Positions 1,128-9,542 are shown, numbered from the stretch's first letter. The stretch is 40,002 nt of DNA from an uncultured bacterium (GCA_902760645.1 CACWHC010000014.1:1-40002), one strand, 5' to 3'. Made by a program: numbers and translations. Notes: a model not told the origin generated them from the letters alone.

Positions 1128-1169
1128 AAAAAAGAAGTACATAGAATAAATCCTATGTACTTCTTTTTT
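1128..1169 (-). terminator. Terminator hairpin of tRNA-Ala
   Basis: A perfect 17-bp stem (1128-1144 with 1153-1169) and an 8-base loop directly after the tRNA 3' end on the minus strand. It is very AT-rich at its base and rich in A/T flanks, as expected for an intrinsic terminator of the tRNA transcript. Confidence 0.75.
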
Positions 1170-1241
1170 GGAGAATAGGAGACTCGAACTCCTAACCCCC
1201 TGCGTGCAAAGCAGGTGCTCTACCAATTGAGCTAATCCCCC
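1169..1241 (-). tRNA. tRNA-Ala (anticodon TGC)
   Basis: 73 bases fold as a full cloverleaf: acceptor GGGGGAT with ATTCTCC (two G-T pairs), D arm GCTC/GAGC, anticodon stem CCTGC/GCAGG with loop TTTGCAC, and T arm AGGAG/CTCCT with loop TTCGAGT. The anticodon TGC reads alanine GCN codons. The discriminator is A and CCA is not encoded. Its 3' end is duplicated at 967-983, which marks it as an integration target. Confidence 0.95.
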
Positions 1242-1376
1242 ATAGGGTTATTTGATTTTCACGCACACCTTTTTAAAGGGTACTTTTTTATTTTACATGC
1301 TGATTTTTTTTTGTAAAGTACTTTTTTAAATTTTTTCTTATTGCAATTCAGGCTAATTTTATTATCATACTTTTAT

Positions 1377-1414: not shown

Positions 1415-2359
1415 ATGGAAGAAAAAGATTTGAACGTATTTAAAAGATTTTGGATATACCAAAAAGAACGTTTCCCTTTTTTGTCATACGGCTTAATGGT
1501 ATTTACGTTCGCATTCTCGGCTATGTCTTATTCTAAATTTTTAAGAGGAAGTTTTGAGTTTTCTTTTTTGGCTTTGATTATTGGTGCAATGACGTCTTTC
1601 GGGTATTTCTTCCTGCTCAGGCTTTTCGATGAATTTAAAGATGCCGAAGATGATGCAAAATACCGCCCGTACAGAGCCGTTCCAAGAGGTTTGGTTTCTT
1701 TTAAAGAACTCAAAATTCTCATTATCCTGATAATTTTATTCCAGGGTATTCTGAATTTTATATTTATGCCAAAAATGTTGTGGATATGGGGTTTAGTCAT
1801 AATTTATATGTTTATTATGGCAAAAGAATTTTTTGTAAGAGATTGGCTTAGACTTCACCCGATTGCATATTTGGTTTCACATATGATGGTCATGCCGGTA
1901 ATTGATTTTTATACAACAGGTTTAGACTGGAATAATGCAAACCTTGGTTTGCCAAACGGTTTAATAATATTCCTCGTTGTAACATTCTTAAACGGTGTTG
2001 TTATAGAAATAGGAAGAAAAATCCGAGCAAAAGAAGCTGAAGAAACAGGCGTTGAAACTTACTCATATCTGTGGGGCGAAAAAGGTGCTGCTTTAACTTG
2101 GCTTTGCATATTATTTATAACGTTTATTTTCGCAAATATAGCATGTTTTTATGCAGGATTTGGAAGACTAACCTTCGTATTTTTGGTAATATTCCTCCTG
2201 ATATGTGCCATTCCGGCACTTATGTTTCTTAAAAAACGGGAACAAAAATATGCTGCTAAAATTGAAACTATGGCAGGCATCTGGACATTGGGTATGTACC
2301 TTTCACTAGGCGGTATTCCAATGATTTTGCATTTTATAAGGAGTTTTAATGGATTTTAA
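1415..2359 (+). CDS. UbiA-family prenyltransferase-like membrane protein
   Basis: A 314-residue multi-pass membrane protein, roughly eight to nine helices, matching the length of UbiA-type aromatic/lipid prenyltransferases. The first Asp-rich site is RLFDEFKDAEDD at 69-80, with D72 and D76 placed like the NDxxDxxxD motif that binds prenyl-diphosphate Mg2+. It is followed by RPYRAVPRG (84-92), typical of the family. The second site (about 198-214) reads GRKIRAKEAEETGVET and lacks the usual DxxxD, so this is a divergent branch with unknown acceptor. It heads a six-gene run and overlaps the next gene by 11 bases. The reaction is inferred to be transfer of a prenyl or related group to a lipid or small acceptor; the acceptor cannot be read from sequence. 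Confidence 0.8.
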   Translation: MEEKDLNVFKRFWIYQKERFPFLSYGLMVFTFAFSAMSYSKFLRGSFEFSFLALIIGAMTSFGYFFLLRLFDEFKDAEDDAKYRPYRAVPRGLVSFKELKILIILIILFQGILNFIFMPKMLWIWGLVIIYMFIMAKEFFVRDWLRLHPIAYLVSHMMVMPVIDFYTTGLDWNNANLGLPNGLIIFLVVTFLNGVVIEIGRKIRAKEAEETGVETYSYLWGEKGAALTWLCILFITFIFANIACFYAGFGRLTFVFLVIFLLICAIPALMFLKKREQKYAAKIETMAGIWTLGMYLSLGGIPMILHFIRSFNGF

Positions 2360-4796
2360 TAATGAAAAAGAAGTTGGCGGAAAGGCATATAATTTAGGCA
2401 TATTAACTAAAAACGGAATTAATGTGCCAAAATGGTTTGTCGTAACTTCACCGGATGATGAATTTGAAATTGATGAAAACAAATTATACGCCGTTCGTTC
2501 ATCTGCTGTCGGTGAAGATAACAGTGATAACTCTTTTGCAGGACAAATGGAATCCTATTTGTATGTGAAACCTTGTGATATAAAACAAAGAATACAGGAT
2601 GTAATTGATTCTGCAAATTCTGACAGAATAAAGTTTTACAGAGAGCAAAACGGTTTAGACAATGAAAATATAAAAGTCGGGGTAATCATTCAGGAAATGA
2701 TTAATTCAGAAATATCAGGAGTTGCTTTTTCTTCAGACCCGATTACGGGGGAACGTAATTCTGTTGTAATATCATCTGTTTTCGGACTTGGTGAAGGGCT
2801 TGTTTCAGGAGAACTTGATGCAGACACTTTCACCGTAAATGGCAATGAAATTTCAAAAAGACTTGTAAATAAGCCGTATAAAATCATATTTGATAAAGAA
2901 AAAGGATACGGAACAATAAAAATCCCTAACCAAAATCCGCAGGAATCTTCTTTAAGTGATAATCAAATAAAAGAGATTTGCGGCAAGGTCAGGGAAATTG
3001 TTTCTATTTACGGCAAACCGCAGGATATTGAGTGGGCTTACGAAAAAGGACAGCTTTATATTTTACAGAGCCGGCCAATAACTACATTGGAAAACCTGGC
3101 AGATAAATCTCAACAGGAAGTTATCTGGGATAATTCAAATATTATTGAAAGTTATTCAGGAGTTACAACACCGCTGACTTTTTCATTTATAAAAGATGTT
3201 TATACGGAAGTGTATAAGCAATTTCTTTTGATAATGGGAGTTGAACAGGAATTAATAGAAGAAAATTCAGATATATTTCAAATGCTCGGACTTATTGAGG
3301 GAAGAGTTTATTACAATCTTTTAAACTGGTACAGACTTTTAAGGCTAATGCCCGGATATGAAATTAATGCAGGTTTTATGGAATCTATGATGGGCGTAAA
3401 ACAAAAATTAAACCAAATTCCAAAAGTTAAACCAAGCAGGAAAAATGAGTATGTAAGATTATTTAATCTTGTAAAATCTCTTATTATAAATTTATTCAGA
3501 CTGCCAAAAGATATCGAAAAATTCTACACTCATATAAATAATACATTATCACCTTACGAAAACGGAAAATTAGAGGGGAAAACTTCCAACGAGCTTGTGG
3601 AAATTTATTATGAATTAGAATCAAAACTTATGAAAAAATGGCAGGCACCGTTAGTAAATGATTTTTATGCAATGATATTTTACGGATTATTGAAAAAGAA
3701 ATTATCCAAAATTGATTCTAACGGAACTCTGCAAAACGATTTACTTACGGGGGAAACCGGTATAATTTCAACAGAACCGATAAAAAGAATAAAAGAAATT
3801 TCCAACAAAATTTGCCTTAATGAAGAATTAAAAGAATTTTTCTTAAATAATTCAGAAGAAGAAATTCAAAAACATTTAACAGAATATGAAATCAATAAAG
3901 ATATTCAGTCTTTTATAAATAAATTCGGAAATCGTTGTATAGGCGAATTAAAGCTGGAAACCGTTACATACAAACAGGATGCAAAACTGCTCTTATACAT
4001 AATTAAATCTTATGTAAGACAGGGAATTATCGATTTAGACAAAGAAAGAGAAAAAGAACAGGAAATCCGAAAAAATGCAGAAAATATCGTTAAAGAAAAA
4101 ATTAAATCTCCTTTCTTTGGTTTTATACTGAAAAATGCACGGTTAAGAGTTAAAAACAGAGAAAATTTAAGATTTGAAAGAACAAGATTATTCGGACTTG
4201 TAAGGGAAATTTTCCTTGAACTGGGCAAAAATTTTGCATACGAAAATATTATTGAAAATAAAAGAGATATTTTTTATCTTACAAAAGAAGAAATTTTTAA
4301 TTATGTAAGAGGCACAAGTGTTGAAACTGATTTGAAAACGCTTATAAGTAGAAGAAAAGAACAGTTCAAATTATTTGAAGATAAGCATCCGTCAGACAGA
4401 TTCTCAACATACGGAATTGTTTATAAATCCAATGATTACACAACCGAAAATAAAGCGGAAGAAAACAACAAAACAGATGGTGATTTAAGCGGTATCGGAT
4501 GTTGTGCGGGAATTGTAAGAGCAAAAGTTAAGATAGTACGTTCCGTTGCGGAATCTTCAGGTTTAGAAGGGTGCATAATGGTTGCAGAACGTACGGATCC
4601 GGGTTGGGTGCCTCTGTTTCCGATAAGTAAAGGTATTCTTGTTGAAAGGGGAAGTATTCTTTCACATTCCGCAATCGTTGCAAGAGAAATGGGTATTCCC
4701 GCAATTGTCGGAATAAATAATCTTTTAACCGCTTTAAAAGACGGAGATGAAATTGAAATGGACGGCGCAACAGGTGTTATAAGGATAATAAAATAA
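2349..4796 (+). CDS. PEP-synthase/rifampin-phosphotransferase-like dikinase without PEP-binding domain
   Basis: 815 residues. The N-terminal ATP-grasp domain is clear: VGGKAYNLG (9-17), YAVRSSAVGED (47-57), FAGQ (63-66), GVAFSSDP (124-131), FGLGEG (145-150), IEWA (227-230) and LQSRPIT (239-245). The C-terminal swivelling domain carries the phosphohistidine, H773, in GSILSHSAIVARE. The middle (about 250-700) is poorly conserved and helical. PEP synthase and PPDK continue into a PEP/pyruvate TIM barrel; here the protein ends just after the His domain. The architecture is therefore that of rifampin phosphotransferase-like enzymes, which pass the beta-phosphate of ATP to a non-pyruvate acceptor. 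In this operon a lipid or polyprenol acceptor is a reasonable inference. Annotation as plain ppsA would mislead. Confidence 0.8.
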   Translation: MDFNNEKEVGGKAYNLGILTKNGINVPKWFVVTSPDDEFEIDENKLYAVRSSAVGEDNSDNSFAGQMESYLYVKPCDIKQRIQDVIDSANSDRIKFYREQNGLDNENIKVGVIIQEMINSEISGVAFSSDPITGERNSVVISSVFGLGEGLVSGELDADTFTVNGNEISKRLVNKPYKIIFDKEKGYGTIKIPNQNPQESSLSDNQIKEICGKVREIVSIYGKPQDIEWAYEKGQLYILQSRPITTLENLADKSQQEVIWDNSNIIESYSGVTTPLTFSFIKDVYTEVYKQFLLIMGVEQELIEENSDIFQMLGLIEGRVYYNLLNWYRLLRLMPGYEINAGFMESMMGVKQKLNQIPKVKPSRKNEYVRLFNLVKSLIINLFRLPKDIEKFYTHINNTLSPYENGKLEGKTSNELVEIYYELESKLMKKWQAPLVNDFYAMIFYGLLKKKLSKIDSNGTLQNDLLTGETGIISTEPIKRIKEISNKICLNEELKEFFLNNSEEEIQKHLTEYEINKDIQSFINKFGNRCIGELKLETVTYKQDAKLLLYIIKSYVRQGIIDLDKEREKEQEIRKNAENIVKEKIKSPFFGFILKNARLRVKNRENLRFERTRLFGLVREIFLELGKNFAYENIIENKRDIFYLTKEEIFNYVRGTSVETDLKTLISRRKEQFKLFEDKHPSDRFSTYGIVYKSNDYTTENKAEENNKTDGDLSGIGCCAGIVRAKVKIVRSVAESSGLEGCIMVAERTDPGWVPLFPISKGILVERGSILSHSAIVAREMGIPAIVGINNLLTALKDGDEIEMDGATGVIRIIK

Positions 4797-5893
4797 TGGG
4801 AAAAGAAATTCAGGAAAGAGCAAAATTTGACAGAATAAGATACGCAAACTGCTGGGAAGACAGCCACCTTTTACTGGAAGCATTTGAAATTACTCCCGAT
4901 AAAAAATGTATTTCAATAGCATCCGCCGGAGATAATTCTCTTGCTCTGCTTATTAAAAATCCGCAAATTGTCTTGGCCGTTGATTTAAGTATTCCGCAAA
5001 TTTCCTGCACCCAGTTAAAAAAATATGCCATCAAACATTTAGATTATGACAGTTTTCTGAAATTATTAGGGTTTAAAGACTGCGATAACAGAATAGAAAT
5101 TTTTAAGTCGATTGAAGAACATTTGTCAACAGAGGCAAAATATTATTTTTCAAATCATTATGACATCATTAAAAACGGAATTATTCATGAGGGTAAATTT
5201 GAAAATTATTTTCAGCTTTTCGCAACAAAAATAATGCCTCTTATACATAATCAGAAAAACCTGACCGAATTGTTTTTGCCAAAAGCTATTGAGGCTCAAA
5301 AACTTTTTTATGACAGGACATGGAATAACTTGAGATTTAAACTTTTATTCAAACTATTTTTCAACAAATTTATAATGGGCAGGCTGGGTCGTGATAAAGA
5401 ATTTTTCAAATACGTTGATACGGCAATGATTTCAGATAATATAAAAGCAAGAACTGACAAAGCATTGAGGGATGTTCCTACATGGAATAATCCTTATGTA
5501 AACTATATTTTGCTGAATAATTTTGAATTTGCTTTACCTGATTTTGCAAAAGAAGAAAATTTCAACATAATAAAAAGCAACATTGATGCACTTGAAATAA
5601 AAATCGGTACAATTAATGAAGCTGCACAAAATTCCGGCATGAAATTTGACTGCTTTAATCTATCTGATATTTTTGAATATATGGATTGCGAACTTTTTAA
5701 AAATATCTCAGAACAACTTTTATCTGTTTCAAACAAAGGTGCAAGATATTGTTACTGGAATATGATGGTTGACAGGCGAATTTCAGAGATTATACCGGAA
5801 CATTTTTCATACAAAGAAGAATTGTCAAAAGAATTGTACGAAAAAGACAGAGCATTTTTCTATAAGAGTTTTATTGTAGATGAGGTAATATAA
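4796..5893 (+). CDS. BtaA-like (DUF3419) S-adenosylmethionine 3-amino-3-carboxypropyl transferase
   Basis: 365 residues. The N-terminus matches BtaA/DUF3419: RYANCWEDSHLLLEAF (about 15-30), then ISIASAGDNSLALL and AVDLS (a SAM-binding Rossmann pattern), then a long helical insert and a C-terminal FDCFNLSDIFEYM segment. In BtaA this fold moves the 3-amino-3-carboxypropyl group of SAM onto diacylglycerol, the first step of betaine-lipid synthesis. The N-methyltransferase partner BtaB is not in the window, so the product would be a homoserine-type ether lipid unless BtaB lies elsewhere. It overlaps the previous stop codon by one base and is followed one base later by the next gene. Family call is strong; acceptor is unknown. 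Confidence 0.8.
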   Translation: MGKEIQERAKFDRIRYANCWEDSHLLLEAFEITPDKKCISIASAGDNSLALLIKNPQIVLAVDLSIPQISCTQLKKYAIKHLDYDSFLKLLGFKDCDNRIEIFKSIEEHLSTEAKYYFSNHYDIIKNGIIHEGKFENYFQLFATKIMPLIHNQKNLTELFLPKAIEAQKLFYDRTWNNLRFKLLFKLFFNKFIMGRLGRDKEFFKYVDTAMISDNIKARTDKALRDVPTWNNPYVNYILLNNFEFALPDFAKEENFNIIKSNIDALEIKIGTINEAAQNSGMKFDCFNLSDIFEYMDCELFKNISEQLLSVSNKGARYCYWNMMVDRRISEIIPEHFSYKEELSKELYEKDRAFFYKSFIVDEVI

Positions 5894-5894
5894 A

Positions 5895-7031
5895 ATGGGT
5901 GATATAATTTGGGGCAGTATAGTTTCTGCGATATTTCTTCTATTATTTGTAATTGCTGAAATTGCATATAAAAAAGGAACGGATGTAGAATTTACGAGAA
6001 AATTTGTTCATTTTGGCGGTGCCTTTGTAACTATATTTTTCCCGTTTATTATACATTCACACTGGACGGTATTAACACTTGCATCAGTTTTTGCAGTTAT
6101 AATGATTCTCACAAAAAAATTAGGATTACTGCAATCCGTACATGGTGTAACCAGAAAATCAGAAGGTGCATTATACCATCCGATTGCAATATATTCCTGC
6201 TTTTTATATGCGGAAATTTTGCAACAGCCTTGGTTTTATGTAATTGCAGTTTTAATTTTGGCAATTTCTGATGCTTCGGCAGCTCTTGTCGGAAAAAGTT
6301 ACGGAGCTTATGAATATGTCGTAGAAATCGGTACCAGAAAAACTTTTGAAGGCTCCATAACATTTTTTCTGACTTCTTTTTTAATAACTCACCTTATTTT
6401 ACTGCTTGCGACAAATACAGGGAGGATTGAAAGCGTTTTAATAGCACTTTTAATTTCAACGATTGTTACGATATTTGAGGGAGTGAGTTTGAAAGGTGCG
6501 GATAATCTTTTTATCCCTTTAGCTGCAATGTTTATTTTGTCGAAAAATATAACACCCACAGTATATGGCATTACAAGACAAATTATCATTTTGTCATTAT
6601 TCATAATTTGGTATCTTATAGTTATGAAACCTTATAAAAGAGTGGGATTTTCGGGAGTATTACTTTTAGGTTTGATAAATTATGTTATTTGGGCATTATT
6701 GGGTAATATACTTGCAGTTGTAATGTTTTTATTCTCATTTATTTGTCAAAAAACTAATTTAATATTAAATTACGAATGTGATGTAGCAGATGCATACAGA
6801 GTAAGACCCATATTTTATATTCTTGCGGTACCTATTACATGTGCCTTTTTGGGACAAGCATTAGGAAACATCGTATGTATCCCGTTTATCACATCATTAA
6901 TTTGTGAAGGTTATATTATAAAAACCAAATTTTTTGATGGTAACCTGAACAAAGGATTAACAGCCACATCAATAATTTCGGTAATAGTAACTATAATTGC
7001 ATTAGGAGTAAAATATGTATTTATCGGATAA
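5895..7031 (+). CDS. Phytol/dolichol-kinase-like (CTP-dependent) integral membrane protein
   Basis: 378 residues, about ten or more membrane helices. Family motifs: RKFVHF (35-40), SDASAALVGK (125-134), RKTFEGS (148-154) and FEGVSLKGADNLFIPL (194-209), as in phytol kinase VTE5, dolichol kinase and bacterial CDP-diglyceride-synthase-like relatives. These use CTP to phosphorylate an isoprenoid alcohol or lipid. The family core ends near residue 220; the remaining 150 residues are an extra hydrophobic module with about six helices and the polar stretch CDVADAYRVRP, not recognised. Its place next to a UbiA-like enzyme suggests it supplies or recycles a prenyl phosphate. Overlaps the next gene by 17 bases. 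Confidence 0.75.
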   Translation: MGDIIWGSIVSAIFLLLFVIAEIAYKKGTDVEFTRKFVHFGGAFVTIFFPFIIHSHWTVLTLASVFAVIMILTKKLGLLQSVHGVTRKSEGALYHPIAIYSCFLYAEILQQPWFYVIAVLILAISDASAALVGKSYGAYEYVVEIGTRKTFEGSITFFLTSFLITHLILLLATNTGRIESVLIALLISTIVTIFEGVSLKGADNLFIPLAAMFILSKNITPTVYGITRQIIILSLFIIWYLIVMKPYKRVGFSGVLLLGLINYVIWALLGNILAVVMFLFSFICQKTNLILNYECDVADAYRVRPIFYILAVPITCAFLGQALGNIVCIPFITSLICEGYIIKTKFFDGNLNKGLTATSIISVIVTIIALGVKYVFIG

Positions 7032-7986
7032 TAAAGATGAATTTTTAAATTTCCCAAAAGAATTATATGCAAATGACCCGTTTTACACTACAAAATCTGA
7101 AAATACTTCGGATTGTGAAAAACTCTTTATAGTAAAAGAAGATGAAAAAATTCTTGCAAGAGCAGCCATAATCTATAATGCCGGTCTGAGTTACAAAAAT
7201 TATAAAACACTTCAGGTCGGATTTTTTGAAGCAGAAAATAACTATAACGCCGTAAAATTTTTATTTGATGAAATAAAAAAATACGCAAAAAATAACGGAT
7301 ACGATTATTTAATCGGACCAATCAACGGCTCAACATGGAAAAAATACCGCATAACCTTACCGTCAAATAACTTGCCTTTCCTTATGGATAATTATAATAA
7401 GCCATATTATGCCAAATTATTTGAAGATTATGGCTTTGAAACCATTTCAAATTATACATCTTCAATTACAAATAATTTAAATAATGATTATTCAAGGTTA
7501 GAAAAATTTGAAAAAATCTTTGAAAATAAGGGTATTAAAATCAGAAAATTTAATCCTGAAAAATTTGAGGAAGATATTAGAAAAATTTATGATGTATCTG
7601 TTCAGAGTTTTGTGAACAATTTTCTTTATACCCCGATTGAATTTGAAATATTTTACAAGATGTATGAACCGGTTAAAAATTTTTTAAACCCCGAATGGAT
7701 TTTAATTGCAGAAGACGAGAATAACAGTCCGTTAGCATTTATTTTTGGATTTGATAATTTATTTTCTCGCGAAAAAAAATCTTTGGTTGTAAAAACTCTT
7801 GCACAGGTTCCTGACTACAAATACAAGGGGATAGGTTCATATTTAACTGAACTTTTGCATAAAAAAGCCTTTATTGCAGGATATGACAATATAATTCATG
7901 CACTTATGCATGAATCTAACGTTTCTGCAAATATCCTTGCCGGCGAACTTTATCACGAATATAAATTATACGGAGCAAAATTATGA
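7015..7986 (+). CDS. GNAT-type acyltransferase, double-domain form
   Basis: 323 residues, soluble. The C-terminal half has the GNAT core: ILIAEDENNSPLAFIFGF, then KTLAQVPDYKYKGIGSYL, which resembles the acyl-CoA pyrophosphate loop (Q/RxxGxG/A), and HALMHESNVSANIL. The N-terminal half has a second, degenerate GNAT-like region with GPINGSTWKKYR. Two-domain GNAT proteins of this kind often use acyl-CoA or acyl carrier donors. The downstream AMP ligase overlaps by ATGA and could supply the activated acyl group, so N-acylation of an amino-containing lipid headgroup is a reasonable guess. Substrate not visible. Confidence 0.65.
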   Translation: MYLSDNKDEFLNFPKELYANDPFYTTKSENTSDCEKLFIVKEDEKILARAAIIYNAGLSYKNYKTLQVGFFEAENNYNAVKFLFDEIKKYAKNNGYDYLIGPINGSTWKKYRITLPSNNLPFLMDNYNKPYYAKLFEDYGFETISNYTSSITNNLNNDYSRLEKFEKIFENKGIKIRKFNPEKFEEDIRKIYDVSVQSFVNNFLYTPIEFEIFYKMYEPVKNFLNPEWILIAEDENNSPLAFIFGFDNLFSREKKSLVVKTLAQVPDYKYKGIGSYLTELLHKKAFIAGYDNIIHALMHESNVSANILAGELYHEYKLYGAKL

Positions 7987-9473
7987 CAAATAATATAGTG
8001 GAAATTTTATTTGAAAACGCAAAAAAATTCCCAAATAAACTTGCAATTATTCATAAAAATGAGAAAATTACATACTCTGAATTGTCAAAAGATGTTAAAG
8101 AGTACGCAAATTATTTTTTGTCGAAAGGACTGAAAAACGGTGATAATGTACTTATTTTTGTGCCTATGACAATAGAATTATATAAAATTTTATCCGCAAT
8201 ATTTTATATTGGTGCTACAGCCGTATTTGTTGATGCCTGGGCTGATAAAAACAGACTGTCACAAGCATTAACAATTGTACCCTGCAAAGCCTTTATAGGT
8301 TGTCCGAAAGCATTTATTTTAAAACTTATGTCTAAAAAAGTTCGTGATGTAAAATTAAATTTTGTCTCGGGTTTTATCGGAAAATGTAAAAAAGAATATA
8401 ATATAGAACCTGCAAAACCGGATACAACCGCATTAATTACATTCACTACGGGTTCTACAGGTTTGCCAAAAGCTGCAAAAAGGACTCACGAATATTTACT
8501 TGAACAACATTATGTTCTGAAAAAACACCTTAATCCTGAAATAAATGATGTGGATTTGGCAAGTTTACCAATATTTGTACTTCATAATCTTGCATGCGGT
8601 ACAACATCAGTAATTCCTGATTTTAATCCTCAAAAACCTGCAGATATTAATCCTGAAAAAATTATTAAAGATATAGAAAAAAACAATATTAACACTTCTG
8701 TCGGCTCACCAAGATTTTATGAAAAACTTGCAGAATATGGTGAAATAAATGGTTTAGAGAGAATTTTTACGGGCGGAGCGCCTGTTTTTCCAAAATCCGC
8801 TAAACTTTTACAGGAAAAATTTAAAAACTGTAATGTTGAAATAGTTTATGGTTCAACAGAAGCCGAACCTATTGCATCAATTTCAACCCGGGAACTCCTT
8901 GATTTTAAAGGAGAAGTTAAAGACGGATTATTTGTCGGAAAACCTATTGATGATATTAATGTAAAAATTATAAGACCGTCTGATGAACCTGTACAAAACT
9001 TTGAAGAAAGCTGGTTGCCGCAGGGTGAAATCGGAGAAATTTGTGTAGAGGGGAAACATGTTTTAAAAGAATATTACAACAGCGAAAAAGCACAAAATTT
9101 TGCCAAAATACGTTACAACGGCCAAATTTGGCACAGAACCGGTGATGCAGGATATATCGATAAGGATGATAATTTATTTCTTATGGGCAGAGTTAAAAAC
9201 AGATTTGAGTATAACGGCAAAGAAATTTATGTTTTCCCGATAGAAAATGCTTTACTTGAAATCGATGAAATCGAGATTGGAACCGTAATGAAAATAGGAA
9301 ACAAAATTGTTTTGGCAATAGAACTGAAACCTTCATCAAAAATAAATGAATTTGAGACCGCAAAATTATCAGGCTTTGAATATGACAGAATAGAATTTTT
9401 AAAAATTCCGAGAGATCCAAGACATAATTCAAAAATAGATTATGATAAATTAGCAAAACTTATTAAGGAGTAG
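7983..9473 (+). CDS. Acyl-AMP ligase, OleC/FadD-like
   Basis: 496 residues of the ANL adenylating superfamily. Core motifs: TTGSTGLPK (155-163, P-loop), YGSTEAEP (289-296), WHRTGDAGYID near 370-385, and a C-terminal catalytic Lys (K484) in HNSKIDY. The GSTEAEP variant and short N-terminus look closer to OleC (beta-lactone synthetase) and fatty acyl ligases than to acetyl-CoA synthetase. It activates a carboxylate, probably a fatty acid, as acyl-AMP. Last gene of the tightly overlapping run, starting inside the stop of the GNAT gene. Whether the product goes to CoA, to the GNAT enzyme or to a lactone is unknown. Confidence 0.8.
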   Translation: MTNNIVEILFENAKKFPNKLAIIHKNEKITYSELSKDVKEYANYFLSKGLKNGDNVLIFVPMTIELYKILSAIFYIGATAVFVDAWADKNRLSQALTIVPCKAFIGCPKAFILKLMSKKVRDVKLNFVSGFIGKCKKEYNIEPAKPDTTALITFTTGSTGLPKAAKRTHEYLLEQHYVLKKHLNPEINDVDLASLPIFVLHNLACGTTSVIPDFNPQKPADINPEKIIKDIEKNNINTSVGSPRFYEKLAEYGEINGLERIFTGGAPVFPKSAKLLQEKFKNCNVEIVYGSTEAEPIASISTRELLDFKGEVKDGLFVGKPIDDINVKIIRPSDEPVQNFEESWLPQGEIGEICVEGKHVLKEYYNSEKAQNFAKIRYNGQIWHRTGDAGYIDKDDNLFLMGRVKNRFEYNGKEIYVFPIENALLEIDEIEIGTVMKIGNKIVLAIELKPSSKINEFETAKLSGFEYDRIEFLKIPRDPRHNSKIDYDKLAKLIKE

Positions 9474-9542
9474 TATATTGTAATAATTTTATGCTCATGA
9501 TACTATCAATGTGTGGTTACTGGTTATAAGGAGAAAGTTTAT

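Follow-up and report, generated by a model that had tools for sequence, protein, structure and literature searches.

The window, a stretch of 40,002 nucleotides from an uncultured bacterium whose genome spans about 2 Mb, carries at positions 1415-9473 six open reading frames that lie on the plus strand only and all start with ATG (Table 1). The initial annotation had described six coupled genes with overlaps or gaps of one base, and this was confirmed: from gene 1 to gene 6 the successive junctions measure -11, -1, +1, -17 and -4 bases (i.e., overlaps of 1 to 17 bases, or a 1-base gap). Most of the frames are preceded by a purine-rich sequence resembling a ribosome-binding site. On the upstream flank, the tRNA-Ala gene is a possible insertion point of the cassette. 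Downstream of gene 6, a 4-alpha-glucanotransferase gene of unrelated function is found at 9513, 39 bases away.

Table 1. The cassette genes in window order with the upstream tRNA gene, followed by the fusion genes found near the cassette in other loci (in the coordinates of those loci).
Feature	Coordinates	Strand	Assignment	Basis
tRNA-Ala(TGC)	1168..1242	-	Upstream flank of the cassette, outside the pathway	ARAGORN
Gene 1	1415..2359	+	UbiA-family membrane transferase, 314 aa	Pfam UbiA, conserved residues, PDB relative
Gene 2	2349..4796	+	Dikinase of PEP-synthase type, 815 aa	Pfam PPDK_N and PEP-utilizers, PigC and RPH models
Gene 3	4796..5893	+	DUF3419 (BtaA family), predicted SAM 3-amino-3-carboxypropyl transferase, 365 aa	Pfam, Rhizobium alignment
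Gene 4	5895..7031	+	Putative membrane CTP-dependent lipid-alcohol kinase, VTE5/DGK1/SEC59 type, 378 aa	CTP_transf_1, signature
Gene 5	7015..7986	+	Tandem-GNAT acyltransferase, 323 aa	Acetyltransf_1 in relatives, AlphaFold model
Gene 6	7983..9473	+	AMP-forming acyl ligase, 496 aa	Nearest PRK09274 and OleC
LplT-PlsC-AMP-ligase fusion, unrelated phyla	L017:14647-18117	-
	L061:451-3870
	L087:2848-6204

The family names first given to the six genes agree with the HMM scans, the weak scores of genes 4 and 5 being backed by their relatives and, for gene 5, also by a structure model. Gene 1 matches Pfam UbiA with 37.9 bits (cut-off 34.2). In 57 orthologs its first acidic motif is intact (D72, E73, D76 and D80) and is followed by an RPxRxxPRG loop with conserved R91 and G92. 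The first-motif region can be aligned to digeranylgeranylglyceryl phosphate (DGGGP) synthase, the closest solved relative (6m31, E = 7.7e-8), and chlorophyll synthase is also among the best matches. In UbiA proteins, a second motif usually supplies Asp residues that bind the prenyl diphosphate. This Asp-rich motif was not found in the 57 orthologs, in which E198xxRK...E209 is conserved in its place; given that Glu, Arg and Lys stand where Asp is usual, prenyl transfer by gene 1 is doubtful.

Gene 2 matches Pfam PPDK_N (219 bits) and PEP-utilizers (85 bits) and consists of an ATP-grasp domain, a long middle domain and a phospho-His domain, while no PEP/pyruvate-binding C-terminal domain appeared in the domain scan. 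His773 in RGSILSHSAIVARE is kept, and the phospho-His and ATP-grasp residues are conserved among 57 orthologs. The protein also matches the PigC and RPH models, and its best PDB matches form the 5fbs/5hv1 group, which we take to be RPH (rifampin phosphotransferase). In one locus (L010, G003:C81:30790-33182) the dikinase is divided into two ORFs, by a frameshift, decay or an assembly error.

Gene 3 matches Pfam DUF3419 with 208 bits, and transfer of the 3-amino-3-carboxypropyl group of SAM is its predicted activity. When aligned with a BtaA-like protein of Rhizobium it presents 24% identity, and the SAM-site-like residues G45, N47 and D63 are invariant, the Rhizobium protein included. Its structure model has a pLDDT of 92.7; the fold search returned nothing at E 1e-3 or better, and weak matches only, to methyltransferase-fold proteins.

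Gene 4 taken alone matches CTP_transf_1 slightly below the cut-off (E = 1.7e-4), and 13 of 47 relatives match it at E <= 0.1. The invariant residues E32 R35 K36 H39 ... G153 ... G201 D203 N204 P208 form a signature which we take to be that of the VTE5/DGK1/SEC59 kinases, motif knowledge pointing to a kinase rather than a cytidylyltransferase. By this signature, gene 4 is assigned as a putative CTP-dependent lipid-alcohol kinase of the multi-helix membrane type. Its C-terminal membrane half is poorly conserved and is missing from most Bacteroidota orthologs; no convincing family was found for it among 47 members, and a PDB sequence search gave no match.

For gene 5, the GNAT match is below threshold when the protein is scanned alone, yet 39 of 48 relatives match Acetyltransf_1. 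The AlphaFold model (pLDDT 94.4) has a tandem GNAT fold, with PDB fold matches that include tandem GNATs, mycothiol synthase, FemX and LPG-synthase domains; P102, W108 and R112 are invariant. Gene 6 matches AMP-binding with 178 bits and keeps the ligase motifs TFTTGSTGLPK and YGSTEAEP together with D388 and K484. Its best NCBIfam model is PRK09274 (383 bits), followed by curated OleC models at 230 and 209 bits, below their cut-offs of 900 and 850. No relatives of OleA, OleB or OleD were found among the conserved neighbours of the cassette.

The initial annotation had proposed searching genomes for co-occurrence of the six families or for scattered relatives. Genome contigs were scanned for gene 3, which yielded 80 loci, and all figures from this survey are conditional on gene 3. 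Protein searches located the other five genes near gene 3 in most of the 80 loci. Thirty-five loci are long (at least 18 kb), and in these, with genes assigned by profile models, the six genes were found in synteny across many phyla, so that the proposal withstood the test for scattered relatives: all six are present in 27 of 35, and genes 1 to 6 singly in 33, 34, 35, 31, 34 and 34, respectively. Counting redundant copies, all six occur together in 47 loci. Genes 3 and 4 are adjacent in 61 of 62 loci, genes 5 and 6 in 46 of 50, genes 4 and 5 in 45 of 48, and genes 1 and 2 in 43 of 46. Gene order takes two main forms (1-2-3-4-5-6; 3-4-5-6-1-2), neither of which splits the pairs 1-2, 3-4 or 5-6. 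Pairwise distances among the gene families correlate (Spearman 0.47-0.88), a value to which shared ancestry contributes.

Complete sets were found in Bacteroidota, Melainabacteria, Elusimicrobiota, Planctomycetota, Lentisphaerota, Kiritimatiellota, Chlorobiota, Thermodesulfobacteriota and Pseudomonadota, some of these labels coming from metagenome bins. On an alphaproteobacterial (Roseinatronobacter) plasmid, L097, genes 1-6 are arranged as in the window; the row of this plasmid was omitted from one re-made alignment. The closest gene 3 relatives of the window come from rumen and gut assemblies of Melainabacteria/Gastranaerophilales. Carriers live in gut, rumen, soil and marine habitats and include the cultured genera Sphingobacterium and Dyadobacter. 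In the gene 3 tree the phyla are intermingled, a pattern suggestive of transfer from one phylum to another, although bin errors and paralogues can contribute.

Two samples, of 57 genomes from the window's taxonomic order and of 149 Bacteroidia genomes, provide tests that are independent of gene neighbourhood. In the former, DUF3419 is present in 8 of 57 genomes, and these 8, and no others, have a strong dikinase ortholog (E of 8e-238 or lower). In the latter, 8 genomes have a gene 3 ortholog and 7 of these 8 also have gene 5; gene 5 relatives at 29-34% identity were found in two further genomes. The six genes are a real unit, probably a dedicated, horizontally spread cassette. A fragment of a dikinase, 62% identical, was also observed at a contig end (G031:C91:10-243) of a ninth genome of the order, which was scored as cassette-negative; in that genome the cassette may be present yet cut or missing from the assembly.

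Clustering of all ORFs in the surveyed loci yielded one more recurrent neighbour, a homologue of class I HMG-CoA reductase (HMGR), which 21 of the 35 long loci contain. In most loci having it, it lies directly ahead of gene 1 or gene 3, and on plasmid L097 it lies across the plasmid origin, directly upstream of the UbiA gene. The HMGR family was found in all eight Bacteroidia genomes with a gene 3 ortholog versus 29 of the 141 others. The homologue is absent from the window genome, its near relatives and several other carriers, which suggests the reduction step is optional or replaced; nothing adjacent to the cassette in the window lineage takes its place.

All 36 linked HMGR-like proteins have Glu or Asp at the position of human Ser684 and have lost Lys735, which is replaced mainly by Ser, Val, Met, Ile or Thr. 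Retained in these copies are Glu559, Arg590, Asp690, Lys691, Lys692, His752, Asn755, Asp767 and His866, apart from one truncated copy without 559 and 590. In the human enzyme, the HMG moiety of statins is contacted by Ser684, among other residues, and its terminal carboxylate forms a salt bridge with Lys735 (PMC9500038). Given that these two positions are altered and the catalytic residues are kept, the linked enzyme probably reduces an acyl thioester other than HMG-CoA. As for the host metabolism, Dxr of the MEP pathway is present in 29 of 33 carrier genomes or records, and a mevalonate kinase above the curated cut-off in 1 of 33; in two more carriers, which lack Dxr, mevalonate-kinase-like pairs score close to the cut-off. 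With the MEP pathway present and no convincing mevalonate kinase, the linked enzyme cannot supply isoprenoid synthesis by the usual route in most carriers. Evidence from Dxr, mevalonate kinase and the residues led us to reject, for most carriers, the idea that the homologue provides mevalonate for isoprenoids.

A second type of HMGR-like protein (L108, L109, L110, L111, L112 and L114), with 516-612 aa and the sequence LESN(F/L)ATDKK, is also acidic at position 684 and is unlinked to the cassette. Because of this type, the change from Ser684 to an acid is not cassette-specific, and it was rejected as a cassette mark by itself. In two genomes (G063:C6:10602-13391 and G064:C7:58537-61326), 966-aa frames with two mevalonate-kinase-like stretches lie beside a second HMGR gene of ordinary score range.

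Further neighbours are of lipid type. In Sphingobacterium and a few other Bacteroidota, a CDP-alcohol phosphatidyltransferase gene and one for a CTP_transf_1 protein with CdsA-like motifs lie between the HMGR and UbiA genes. Many Gastranaerophilales, as well as one Omnitrophota bin and one Pontiella relative, have a three-domain fusion of an LplT-like MFS protein, PlsC and an AMP ligase close to the cassette. These neighbours are suggestive of a phospholipid-like product. In addition, one Bacteroidota locus (L113:6071-10214, minus strand) has a reduced operon consisting of an HMGR-like gene, a gene-4-type CTP kinase, a fatty acid desaturase, a CDP-alcohol transferase and a CdsA-like gene, without the remaining cassette genes, which suggests gene 4 and the HMGR-like enzyme act in one route. 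Apart from HMGR, genes 1-6 and the lipid genes, every family is confined to a few loci at most, and the conserved neighbours include no recurrent transporter, regulator or resistance gene other than the LplT-like fusion. The HMGR homologue, the CdsA-like and CDP-alcohol transferase genes and the LplT-PlsC-ligase fusion are additions to the picture given by the initial annotation.

We consider it reasonably probable that the cassette builds one lipid-type product, a membrane-type, N-acylated phospholipid analogue bearing an aminocarboxypropyl group. Gene content, conservation, linkage and residues are observed directly, and the pathway chemistry is deduced wholly from the enzyme families. In this chemistry, gene 6 would activate an acid and gene 5 would transfer the acyl group onto an amine to form an amide, the aminocarboxypropyl group of the product being derived from SAM. 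The UbiA protein and the dikinase may make or modify the hydrophobic part. Where present, the HMGR-like enzyme would reduce an acyl thioester, yielding a primary alcohol, and gene 4 would phosphorylate a lipid alcohol using CTP. In some Bacteroidota, the CdsA-like enzyme and the CDP-alcohol transferase might then add a further head group. The HMGR-like step and the CDP-activation with head-group transfer would thus be optional extensions in some lineages. The cluster had first been read as making a phosphorylated, prenylated or acylated lipid with an aminocarboxypropyl group; the aminocarboxypropyl, acyl and phosphate parts appear to be the best reading, yet prenylation is insecure due to the UbiA motif.

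Several observations weigh against this reading. Gene 4 lacks its C-terminal half in most Bacteroidota orthologs, the second UbiA motif makes prenyl transfer doubtful, and a tandem GNAT with an AMP ligase is equally apt for soluble natural products. Moreover, the HMGR homologue is missing in the window lineage and several carriers, and altered HMGR-like proteins of the second type exist without the cassette.

The alternative that survives best, although we regard it as unlikely, is a soluble or secreted specialised metabolite with an aminocarboxypropyl group (e.g., a signal, metallophore or antibiotic), for which the membrane enzymes would serve one hydrophobic intermediate. Such a role fits the patchy occurrence and horizontal spread of the cassette (8 of 57 relatives, 8 of 149 Bacteroidia, a plasmid copy), the RPH and PigC domain order of gene 2, the OleC-like ligase, and the metallophores and antibiotics that other aminocarboxypropyl transferases produce (PMC10491745). 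Yet the recurrent extra genes are lipid genes, two of the six gene products are lipid enzymes integral to the membrane, and transporter, regulator or resistance genes do not recur, with the exception of the LplT-like fusion.

A homoserine-ether lipid is a more novel proposal that we hold to be improbable: a re-purposed HMG-CoA reductase would convert its carboxylate or acyl thioester to an amino alcohol, which would then be N-acylated and phosphorylated with CTP. If true, this would be an unseen class of bacterial lipid, a ceramide-like phospholipid whose synthesis bypasses serine palmitoyltransferase.

Somewhat less credible still is a tocopherol-like salvage of prenols, in which the CTP kinase and the dikinase would produce a prenol diphosphate (e.g., from phytol) that UbiA transfers to an acceptor. 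The combination of a VTE5-type kinase with UbiA is as expected, and several carriers inhabit the gut or rumen, which offer a source of plant phytol. However, soil and marine carriers are common, the second acidic motif of UbiA is altered, L113 has gene 4 without UbiA, and DUF3419, GNAT, the ligase and the HMGR-like genes are left unaccounted for.

It is very improbable that the product is an archaeal-type ether lipid, for which a DGGGP-synthase-like UbiA, a CTP transferase and a CDP-alcohol transferase would build a prenyl glycerol ether bearing an amino-acid head group. DGGGP synthase is the closest solved UbiA, some carriers have CdsA-like and CDP-alcohol transferase genes, and an archaeal HMGR is the closest PDB protein to the HMGR homologue. 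Nevertheless, GGGP synthase (PcrB) was not found in the window genome or in most carriers outside Bacteroidota, the HMGR homologue has lost both Ser684 and Lys735, and mevalonate kinase is mostly absent.

Finally, a variant of the BtaA-BtaB betaine-lipid (DGTS) pathway is scarcely credible even though gene 3 and BtaA belong to one Pfam family, considering that identity to the Rhizobium protein is low, that this protein lies on a very long branch of the gene 3 tree, apart from the cassette family, that its gene is directly followed by a methyltransferase gene, whereas no recurrent BtaB-type N-methyltransferase gene was found beside the cassette in the conserved-neighbour clustering of the surveyed loci, and that betaine lipids replace phospholipids while the cassette spends phosphate. 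Given that a linked BtaB is absent, membership in this pathway was rejected.

Returning to the N-acylated phospholipid analogue, the conserved pathway of gut, soil and marine bacteria probably makes an overlooked lipid or lipid-like metabolite. The initial annotation named no characterised pathway with this gene set, and neither such a pathway nor a description of the cassette was found in the open-access literature searched, several of the searches being narrow; the lipocone paper refers to operons of UbiA and GNAT, not to the six-gene cassette. HMGR homologues altered at HMG-contacting residues would extend a famous drug-target family to a new reaction, and such enzymes would offer a reason for an HMG-CoA-reductase gene in bacteria of the MEP pathway. 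The cultured carriers Sphingobacterium and Dyadobacter make the lipid proposal testable.

In comparison with known systems, gene 2 has the domain order and the catalytic His of rifampin phosphotransferase and the prodigiosin ligase PigC, but forms a subfamily of its own with a shortened or variable N-terminus. Like the VTE5 phytol kinase, DGK1 and SEC59, gene 4 is a membrane protein with the ExxRKxxH, KSLEGS and GxDNLxxP signatures, yet many members of its family have an additional membrane half. Gene 6 is a full ligase with conserved motifs, as are the OleC and PRK09274 AMP ligases, and differs from their members in scoring under the curated cut-offs of both models.

The HMGR-like proteins belong to the fold family of class I HMG-CoA reductase, score 301 bits to archaeal HMGR and have the catalytic Glu, Lys, Asp and His in common with it; they depart from it at Ser684 and Lys735, and their hosts mostly use the MEP pathway. 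In fungi, SidI and SidF of the fusarinine siderophores are a mevalonyl-CoA ligase and a GNAT. The cassette likewise places an AMP ligase and a GNAT beside mevalonate-type chemistry, but its linked HMGR-like enzyme is probably not a mevalonate producer.

As for BtaA, which a review of aminocarboxypropyl transferases lists for betaine lipid only (PMC10491745), its role in DGTS synthesis shares with gene 3 the Pfam family, the predicted aminocarboxypropyl transfer from SAM and the SAM-site-like residues. Gene 3 differs from it in having NLSDIFEYM where the BtaA-like protein has ILLDAQDWM, and in being accompanied not by BtaB but by five or six partner enzymes.
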